DNA of 25,931 nt, from IMG/VR virus record IMGVR_UViG_3300023049_000067, positions 1-25,931 of that record, one strand, 5' to 3'. Numbering within the stretch: the first letter of the stretch is position 1; every line of letters starts with the position of its first letter. Position numbers and translations under genes: made by a program. This document shows, piece after piece, positions 1,427-25,931 of the stretch. This DNA comes from a virus. Below the pieces are notes generated by a model that was not told where the DNA came from, did not search any database, and saw only the letters and a program-made list of their open reading frames with translations.

Positions 1427-1455
1427 ATTATACCAAACTTTATAAAGTTATGCAA
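1427..1455 (-). promoter_or_regulatory. sigma70-type promoter for accessory array
   Basis: On the minus strand, TTGCAT (1455-1450) is separated by exactly 17 bp from TATAAT (1432-1427). The spacer contains the perfect palindrome AACTTTATAAAGTT (1436-1449), a possible operator. The -35 overlaps the stop region of the gene at 1448-1711. A near-identical copy lies at 2472-2500. Confidence 0.75.
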
Positions 1456-2440: not shown

Positions 2441-2471
2441 GGTTTTTAATCCTTCTCTTGTTTATACCTTA

Positions 2472-2500
2472 ATTATACCAAACTTTATAAAGCTATGCAA
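2472..2500 (-). promoter_or_regulatory. sigma70-type promoter, start of leftward array
   Basis: On the minus strand TTGCAT (2500-2495) lies 17 bp from TATAAT (2477-2472). The spacer holds AGCTTTATAAAGTT, one base from the palindrome of the promoter at 1427-1455. The two copies agree over about 35 bp, including GGTATAAACA downstream of the -10. The core ATAAAGTTT also occurs in the neighbouring iterons. Confidence 0.75.
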
Positions 2501-2507
2501 GCTTTTA

Positions 2508-2569
2508 TATAGGGTTTATGTAGTTTTGTATAAGGTTTATGTAGTTTTGTATAAACTTTATGTAGTTTA
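2508..2569 (-). repeat. three iterons, left cluster
   Basis: Three 20-bp units start at 2508, 2529 and 2550, a strict 21-bp period or two helical turns. In minus orientation each reads AAACTACATAAA followed by CCC, CCT or GTT and then TATA. Confidence 0.85.
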
Positions 2570-2800
2570 GCACGTGTTAAAAAGATGTTGCGTCATATAT
2601 TATCATATAATAAAACACTTTTTTCTCTTTTCCTAACGCCACAGGTGATAACATTAATCATATATATCATATATTATCATATAACATTGTTCATATAATT
2701 CATATATTATGATATACGATAGAACCTGTACTACTTTCAAAACAAAAAAAATGTTTTACTATATGATAATATATGACGCAGTGTCCTTTTAAGGCGTAGA

Positions 2801-2871
2801 TAAACTACATAAAGTTTATACAAAACTACATAAAGTTTATACGCAATCTCACAAACTACATAAAGTTTAGC
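2801..2871 (+). repeat. three iterons, right cluster
   Basis: Units with core AAACTACATAAAGTTTA begin at 2802, 2823 and 2853, with spacings of 21 and 30 bp. They are inverted with respect to the left cluster. The third runs into CATAAT (2871-2876), a possible -10 element without a clear -35. Confidence 0.85.
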
Positions 2872-2945
2872 ATAATATAAGCATTAATATAGCACAGCGT
2901 TGATAACCTTTATAAAGTTATTGACATGCGGCATGTTTTATGCGT

Positions 2946-2960
2946 GGGGGGCATCCCCCC
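2946..2960. other. G6-CAT-C6 hairpin
   Basis: GGGGGG (2946-2951), the loop CAT (2952-2954) and a C run (2955-2961) form a very strong small hairpin. No T run follows, so it is not a classical terminator. It lies in the leader upstream of the terminase genes, just after the palindrome at 2924-2936. Confidence 0.6.
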
Positions 2961-3054
2961 CTATGTTGCACCCGCGTCACCTGCTCACAATTTTTTTGCA
3001 TATTTCTCGTAACTCGACAAGTTCCACACGGTATAGAAGAGCACCCCACATGAG

Positions 3055-3711
3055 ATGCCCGTATATATAATGTTGACAGAGGTGACATGTTTCAAGCATA
3101 TTATTCGTATGACCAGCATCAATTCACCAACTAAAGCATATGATCTGTTAGAAGCTATCGAACGTGAGGTCGTTGATGACTATGTTGCCTACGTCCAGTC
3201 TGACCAGAAGTTCAAAGGTGAGAGAATAGCCATTGCGCTGGGATATGCGATACCCGCAGAGTATGTAAGACGGTCTAAAGGTGCGCTCAACAAGCCTATC
3301 GTCCGAATTGCCGTACAAGAGAAAATACAACAAATTGCGGACGACGAGGATTTATCGCCTTCCCGGGTGATCAAAGAGCATGCTGCGATTGCGTTTTCCA
3401 ACCTTAAGGATTTTGTTGAGGCTGCTGACTTTGGTGAGTTTAAGGTGAAGAACCTAGACGAGATCCCCAAAGAGCTTATGGGCGCGGTCAAGACAATCAG
3501 GACTGTTCCTACAGCGTATGGCAATCGTATTGAGGTTATCATGCACGACAAGCTGGCCAGCCTTAAGATGATGGGTGAGTTGATGGGGCTTGCAGCACCT
3601 GACAGACCGCCGGCGCTTGAGGATTATTCGACACCGCGAGAAGAGAAGAAAGAGCTGAAAGCCACGGCTGCAGACGCTTACACACAATTACTGGAGAGTC
3701 AACATGCTTAA
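3055..3711 (+). CDS. terS: terminase small subunit
   Basis: Role: DNA recognition for packaging, forming an oligomer that hands phage DNA to the large subunit. After a variable N-terminus the protein reads as a Terminase_2-like small subunit: 'GERIAIALGYAIPAEYVRRSK' (a helix-turn-helix-like part: IAIALGYAIPAEYVR), then 'KPIVRIAVQEKIQQIAD' and 'VIKEHAAIAFSNLKDF'. It lies immediately upstream of the large subunit gene. The start is uncertain. The ATG at 3055 gives 218 aa; an in-frame ATG at 3112 (MTSINSPTKAYDLLE) would give 199 aa and matches the first family-like residues better. Neither has a clear ribosome-binding site, and a TTGACA occurs between them at 3073, so the shorter form may be the real one. 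Confidence 0.85.
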   Translation: MPVYIMLTEVTCFKHIIRMTSINSPTKAYDLLEAIEREVVDDYVAYVQSDQKFKGERIAIALGYAIPAEYVRRSKGALNKPIVRIAVQEKIQQIADDEDLSPSRVIKEHAAIAFSNLKDFVEAADFGEFKVKNLDEIPKELMGAVKTIRTVPTAYGNRIEVIMHDKLASLKMMGELMGLAAPDRPPALEDYSTPREEKKELKATAADAYTQLLESQHA

Positions 3712-25616: not shown

Positions 25617-25931
25617 TTAGCGTGGTAGTGGCATTCCCGGCATCTCGCTAGAAGGGGATGTAGTCGCAGCCGGAGCAGTGCCAGGAACCGATTGGGTCGT
25701 AGCTGCCTGTGGTTGTAAAGGTGCCGCAGCAGGAACACCTTGTGGCGGGTGTGCTGGTTGCATTGCTTGAGCAGGTGCCGTACCTGTGGCATTAGCTACA
25801 AAGTTAGGGTCTGCTGGTGGTAAACTCTGAACCGGAGCAGCCGCAGGTGGAGCAGCCGCAGGTGGAGCAGCCGCAGGTGGAGCAGCCGCAGGTGGAGCAG
25901 CCGCAGGTGGAGCAGCCGCAGGTGGAGGAGC
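25617..25931 (-). CDS. Pro/Ala-rich protein, C-terminal part
   Basis: The minus-strand frame is open from the right edge to TAA at 25619-25617, about 104 codons; the N-terminus lies outside the window. It starts with repeated A-A-P-P-A units encoded by 15-bp repeats, continues with 'PVQSLPPADPNFVANATG' and 'PAQAMQPAHPPQGVPAAAP', and ends 'SEMPGMPLPR'. This is low-complexity and probably disordered. Such tails occur on phage replication or recombination proteins, for example single-stranded DNA-binding proteins, but the domain that would decide is not in view. Its terminator lies just downstream. Confidence 0.65.
   Translation of the reverse strand, partial: APPPAAAPPAAAPPAAAPPAAAPPAAAPPAAAPVQSLPPADPNFVANATGTAPAQAMQPAHPPQGVPAAAPLQPQAATTQSVPGTAPAATTSPSSEMPGMPLPR
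25834..25931 (-). repeat. 15-bp tandem repeat, six copies
   Basis: The unit GGAGCAGCCGCAGGT repeats exactly six times from 25834 to 25923 and continues in altered form to the window edge. It is in frame and encodes the Ala-Ala-Pro-Pro-Ala repeat of the protein on the minus strand. Confidence 0.95.

Follow-up and report, generated by a model that had tools for sequence, protein, structure and literature searches.

A repeat-rich, non-coding block just before the terminase genes is probably the replication origin of the phage analysed here, and it would work in the manner of the P4 and PICI origins. The window, that is, the whole stretch of DNA analysed, is the 25,931-bp virus contig IMGVR_UViG_3300023049_000067. 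The block is read as an origin because its layout of mirrored, helically phased iterons recurs in relatives of the phage with different letters. Three things were directly established: the anatomy of the block, its return at the corresponding genomic position in relatives, and the primase-helicase that these relatives encode.

Genomic context

The window opens with leftward early genes (1-2440), followed by the iteron block and a rightward run of terS, terL, portal, scaffold, capsid, tail and lysis genes, and it closes with a leftward DNA polymerase gene at its right end. The non-coding region holding the block runs from the leftward early operon, whose first gene has its ATG at 2440, to terS (start at 3055 or 3088). 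The TerL of the window is 62% identical to that of Rhizobium phage P106B (56,024 bp) and 60% to that of RHph_X2_24 (55,689 bp), and the DNA polymerase is 54% identical to its P106B/X2_24 counterpart. Judged by these sequence comparisons, the window phage is a siphovirus of ~55 kb and kin of both Rhizobium phages. Because its TerL and polymerase relatives are ~55-56 kb, approximately half of its genome is absent from the contig. A search via the primase for a contig holding the missing half found none from the samples that contain near-identical copies of the phage; the L007 contig is 99.98% identical to the window and adds no divergence.

Architecture of the iteron block

The features of the region, in window coordinates, are as follows.

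1427-1455, minus strand: second leftward promoter P_L2, of the same design as P_L1, 83% DNA match to the P_L1 region
2441-3087, no strand: non-coding region, from the ORF list, TerS by Pfam PF03592
2472-2500, minus strand: leftward early promoter P_L1, TTGCAT-17 bp-TATAAT with extended -10 TGGTATAAT, as read from sequence
2510-2527, minus strand: iteron L1, AAAACTACATAAACCCTA
2531-2548, minus strand: iteron L2, AAAACTACATAAACCTTA, 21 bp from L1
2552-2569, minus strand: iteron L3, TAAACTACATAAAGTTTA, perfect TAAACT-N6-AGTTTA dyad, 21 bp from L2
2514-2624, no strand: left arm of the imperfect inverted repeat (two inverted pairs, one common centre)
2570-2800, no strand: AT-rich core, proposed unwinding region
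2593-2610, plus strand: inner repeat TCATATATTATCATATAA, copy 1
2667-2684, plus strand: inner repeat copy 2, identical to copy 1
2700-2717, plus strand: inner repeat copy 3, 89%
2760-2776, minus strand: inner repeat, inverted copy
2745-2856, no strand: right arm of the imperfect inverted repeat (two inverted pairs, one common centre)
2801-2818, plus strand: iteron R1, TAAACTACATAAAGTTTA, perfect dyad
2822-2839, plus strand: iteron R2, AAAACTACATAAAGTTTA, 21 bp from R1
2852-2869, plus strand: iteron R3, CAAACTACATAAAGTTTA, 30 bp from R2
2904-2921, plus strand: outlying dyad TAACCTTTATAAAGTTAT, with the CTTTATAAAG box as in P_L1 and P_L2

The 12-mer AAACTACATAAA is present in exactly six copies in the 25,931 bp, with no other exact copy, at 2515, 2536 and 2557 on the minus strand and at 2802, 2823 and 2853 on the plus strand. 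The first-pass annotation, made from the sequence of the window, had described two mirror-image clusters of three iterons, mostly with a 21-bp period, enclosing an AT-rich core with repeated inner sites, the whole forming an imperfect inverted repeat with arms of over 100 bp. Each of these elements was recovered. The left cluster (2510-2569) holds three iterons spaced by 21 and 21 bp, the right cluster (2801-2869) three in mirror image, spaced by 21 and 30 bp, and two of the six iteron 18-mers (at 2552 and 2801) are perfect dyads. The inverted-repeat arms measure ~111 nt with 120 nt in between, and consist of an outer piece (2514-2569/2801-2856, 86% complementary) and an inner piece (2572-2624/2745-2797, 85%) that are contiguous and have the same centre, 2684.5-2685. 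The core holds a second, 17-bp repeat: its inner site TCATATATTATCATATA stands at 2593 and 2667, a variant of it follows at 2700, and the copy at 2760 is inverted. The AT-richest 200 bp of the window begins at ~2575 (78% AT). The range given earlier for the block, 2508-2871, fits as well; the whole figure spans ~2472-2921 once the outermost partly matching sites are counted. Between 2500 and 2899 there are 115 direct and 154 inverted 16-mer pairs, against a mean of ~4 each and maxima of 21 direct and 19 inverted in 200 shuffles (first-order Markov resamplings).

Host DnaA-box-like sites were sought in and near the block and none was found. Rfam and tRNA searches returned no match, nor did an INPHARED DNA search with the block as the query, and a search of IMG/VR for the tandem-iteron pattern retrieved a near-identical copy of the same phage only. 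A cruciform or hairpin origin was set aside, the arms being only ~85% complementary and separated by at least 120 nt. The first-pass annotation had also proposed cumulative GC skew as a check. The minimum in the window falls at 3131, but skew in the window, P106B and X2_24 tracks gene strand and is uninformative on the origin.

The annotation had further noticed a core shared between the block and the leftward promoters, and this sharing is real: the iteron and both promoters have the ATAAAGTTT core in common, and P_L1 and P_L2 both carry AAACTTTATAAA, two mismatches from the iteron core. Besides these two promoters, which contain the only TGnTATAAT sequences in the window, just two window sites lie within two mismatches of the iteron core. 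The P_L1 spacer contains the near-iteron AAACTTTATAAA / CTTTATAAAG dyad. Altogether three outlying iteron-like CTTTATAAAG dyads were found, at 1438, 2483 and 2908, two of them in leftward-promoter spacers; the one at 2908 stands outside any clear promoter. The likeness of P_L1 and P_L2 takes in the leader (83% over ~77 bp). Clear promoters occur on the left of the block only, the right iteron cluster having none beside it. As the two leftward promoters contain near-iteron sites, the block may also have a regulatory side-role.

The same layout in related phages

Terminase, polymerase and primase relatives were taken from IMG/VR, giving twelve underlying records to which P106B and X2_24 were added; for each genome, non-coding gaps were listed and repeat pairs counted against shuffles. 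Most relatives contain one non-coding, usually AT-rich block upstream of the terminase, with the same layout and different repeat letters. In most near-complete genomes, P106B and X2_24 among them, the AT-richest 200 bp lies ~1-5 kb upstream of terL, and in most genomes the gap with the most inverted pairs falls in this interval too. An inverted excess (p<=0.01) was detected in 10 of the 14 main-set blocks (window counted), nine of these ten having direct and inverted excess together; in the control gaps of the same genomes both excesses occurred in 0/67 and the inverted excess in 1/67, a comparison in which the relatives' blocks were chosen with knowledge of AT content and repeats and the control gaps were unselected. 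Among further relatives, nine of eleven passed the inverted test.

When the spacings between direct copies were pooled, they showed the pattern of helical phasing, with peaks at 9-10, 18-21, 30 and 40-41 bp and none at 13-15. The iteron letters vary from one relative to another: TTATGTAATA in L015, GGGCGATTAT in L033, GTTGATGAA in L036, ACTCGGTAA in L222, TTGGGGAAATC in L042, GGGTTAC in L043 and AAAACTTTAAGGC in L008. Orientation and phasing persist among the phages although the repeat sequences differ. The first-pass annotation had named arms that are not conserved in relatives as evidence against its reading; what we found is divided, the architecture being conserved and the arm sequence not. 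The core between the arms measures ~30-300 nt in relatives and is mostly 67-91% AT, falling to just 49-63% in the L036, L218 and L222 subclade. A common sequence motif was considered and rejected: several blocks have an excess of TTATG[T/G] and others of CTTGACA, which probably reflects promoters, and neither is universal.

The pattern has exceptions, and these count against the origin reading. L013 has no clear block, X2_24 has none by the repeat-pair test, the array of L037 is weak and that of P106B is modest (p=0.04). In P106B, whose AT-rich block is at 52.77-53.14 kb, and in X2_24 the annotated genes flanking the block run one way, so that divergent transcription is not part of the pattern.

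A candidate initiator in the relatives

The earlier statement that no initiator gene is recognisable in the window is true; however, the window is a fragment, and the candidate initiator gene is encoded in relatives in the half that is missing here. The near-complete records checked whose terL is closest to that of the window encode a ~780-aa primase and SF3 helicase, and P106B_71 and its X2_24 counterpart have RepB_primase, PriCT_2 and DUF5906 domains. When the protein was sought in more distant terminase relatives (e.g. L042, L054, L064 and L067), several gave no match, so the co-occurrence of primase-helicase and block is limited to an inner clade. In 11 of 12 genomes the primase-helicase gene has the block on its 3' side, between the gene and terL. 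The distance from gene to block ranges from 34 bp to 6.9 kb among relatives, with the shortest values in one subclade (34 bp in L036 and 220 bp in L037; L218 and L222 are alike).

Sequence searches with the primase-helicase matched NrS-1, S-2L PrimPol and RepB. In its AlphaFold model (mean pLDDT 86.6), the fold matches the C-terminal region of the NrS-1 polymerase and the pox D5/E5 helicases. The last ~100 residues are modelled as helix-strand-helix-helix-strand-strand, a winged-helix order; this C-terminal domain had no significant structural match in the PDB (best E=0.17), and many of its weak matches are winged-helix DNA-binding proteins. The iteron-binding protein is likely the primase-helicase itself. 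P4 alpha and PICI Rep have been described as initiators that act at the ori of their own element (PMC6092414).

Comparison with known origins

The annotated crr of P4 closely follows the alpha gene (777 aa; DUF5906, D5_N and Pox_D5 domains) on its 3' side and is made of 8-bp repeats in both orientations, some of them 9-11 bp apart. The same repeat-pair test applied to P4 gave an inverted excess for crr (p=0.005) and a weak one for ori1 (p=0.05). The block resembles crr and ori1 in having short, helically spaced iterons in both orientations; crr, like the block of most relatives examined, lies 3' of a D5-type/DUF5906 helicase gene. In P4, however, the function is split between two sites with 8-mer iterons, whereas here there is one block with 18-mers 21 bp apart, which can be kilobases from the primase-helicase gene. 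Further, P4 has a Toprim primase and the relatives an AEP (RepB_primase). DUF5906 (PF19263) was detected at 2.7e-18 in the P106B protein and at 2.5e-9 in P4 alpha; Pox_D5 (PF03288) and Toprim were sought in the relatives' primase-helicase, with no PF03288 match and RepB_primase/PriCT_2 instead. An hhalign profile comparison of the relatives' primases with P4 alpha found nothing, though Pfam DUF5906 is common to both. As the primase types differ and Pox_D5 was not detected, the likeness to P4 is one of architecture and helicase class, not of orthology. The relatives' primase-helicase may work like alpha, yet it is not classed among the orthologues of alpha.

In PICIs the origin is found 3' of rep, and its AT-rich region is invariably bordered by two sets of iterons (PMC6092414). 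The PICI/SaPI origins (pri-rep-ori) are those of satellite islands, whereas the window phage is a self-sufficient tailed phage of ~55 kb that encodes a DNA polymerase itself, and in most relatives the block is near the terminase rather than directly after the primase-helicase gene.

The NrS-1 PrimPol is similar in that the relatives' protein has the same helicase fold together with an AEP primase. Its 8-nt recognition sites in mid-genome have been proposed as a possible origin; unlike the block, the part of the NrS-1 description considered here has two recognition sites and no iteron array. We take TTTGGTTA to be the NrS-1 PrimPol recognition sequence. It was discarded as a general feature of the relatives' blocks, being present in the L018/L020 type only: the L018 inverted arms (3508-3530/3701-3723, perfect over 23 nt) contain it, as do the L020 arms. 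Helically spaced iterons next to AT-rich DNA, as in the window block, are also a hallmark of the lambda ori and of iteron plasmid origins. In those systems, however, the iterons are direct repeats that occupy a single flank of the AT-rich region, and the initiators are of other families, whereas here the iterons are mirrored on both sides of the core.

Alternative explanations

The first-pass annotation considered an origin and a regulator array equally likely. That equality has not survived, since the relatives tip the balance towards an origin, but its suggestion of a possible regulatory side-role has. If the iterons served a phage transcription factor as operators or as activator sites, controlling the divergent leftward early and rightward late units with no replication role, the window would fit by itself: the block sits between divergent units, the iterons are immediately upstream of the P_L1 -35, two of them are perfect dyads, and near-iteron boxes are inside both leftward promoters. 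We nevertheless regard regulation alone as improbable. The same geometry recurs as essentially the sole such block per genome, the block of P106B and X2_24 sits between same-direction annotated genes, and the position 3' of the SF3 primase-helicase gene in 11/12 genomes is that of P4 and PICIs; all three observations favour an origin. A simple operator set needs neither the recurrent mirror layout around a core nor that recurrent position, and the right cluster would be left without a clear promoter to act on. Far less probable still is a packaging (pac) site, where TerS would bind the repeats and packaging would start. SPP1-type pac sites do contain TerS-binding repeats, and the distance from the block to the downstream terL is at most ~5 kb; in the window, terS follows the block directly. 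On the other hand, it can be 3-4 kb from terL with other genes between, lies 34-220 bp from the primase in one subclade, and has two mirrored arrays around a usually AT-rich core, which is origin-like.

A different binder at the origin is a rather unlikely variant, and its share is counted within the origin reading and not added to it. A small HTH protein (P106B_70 type) or a host factor would bind the iterons, and the primase-helicase would be loaded indirectly. P106B indeed has an HTH_17 protein directly before its primase gene; X2_24, however, lacks that gene at this place, the search for DnaA-box-like sites speaks against the host factor, and the P4 alpha and PICI Rep precedents speak for direct binding.

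Proposed mechanism and implications

For the preferred reading, an origin bound by the primase-helicase, we infer the following course of events. The initiator would be a phage protein, the likeliest candidate being the C-terminal DNA-binding part of the AEP primase / SF3 helicase encoded outside the window, and it would bind both of the mirrored, helically phased iteron sets. With two or three turns from site to site, the protomers would line up on the same face of the helix, and the mirrored sets would load a pair of helicase assemblies face to face across the AT-rich core. The core would then melt, the helicases would travel outwards, and the primase domain would provide the phage DNA polymerase with primers. 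Binding of this initiator to the near-iteron boxes in the leftward early promoters may also tune early transcription.

This design has so far been described mainly in small parasitic phages and islands. Its layout as a single repeat-rich block in a self-sufficient phage clade would extend it beyond satellites, and it offers an origin prediction, tied to a named candidate initiator, for phages in which no mapped origin was found. The clade also offers many natural initiator-iteron pairs for studying how recognition changes, and as some members are isolates (P106B and X2_24), bench work is possible. A bolder proposition, which we hold only tentatively and think somewhat doubtful, is that full-size tailed phages which encode a polymerase have, throughout a whole clade, origins of the P4/PICI type, with iteron letters changing in nearly every lineage and the geometry kept. 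If true, diversifying pressure would be acting on the initiator-origin pair, and satellite origins could stem from such phages.

Additional features of the contig and its relatives

Coding repeats are present at both ends of the contig and may be the reason that the assembly stopped there. At 1-306 lies an Imm5-like ORF with triplet-rich repeats, and at 25834-25931 a coding 15-bp x6.5 Pro/Ala repeat, which is probably the tail of a Gp2.5-like SSB, judged by position in P106B. The leftward operon encodes, at 919-1200 on the minus strand, a homologue of TreK (PF24229), a protein encoded in the terminal repeats of Staphylococcus phages.

Further arrays were seen in two relatives. L012 has a second, GC-balanced array (3020-3212) of six direct TATGTAATGGTAYGGC copies, mostly 21 bp apart and ~2.2 kb from its AT-rich inverted block, and either could be the L012 origin. 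In L008, a long run of 9-bp CAACACCCC-type repeats (3331-3530) lies directly upstream of terS. Finally, the X2_24 early region (L124, 3442-3951) encodes a GcrA-like cell-cycle regulator (PF07750).
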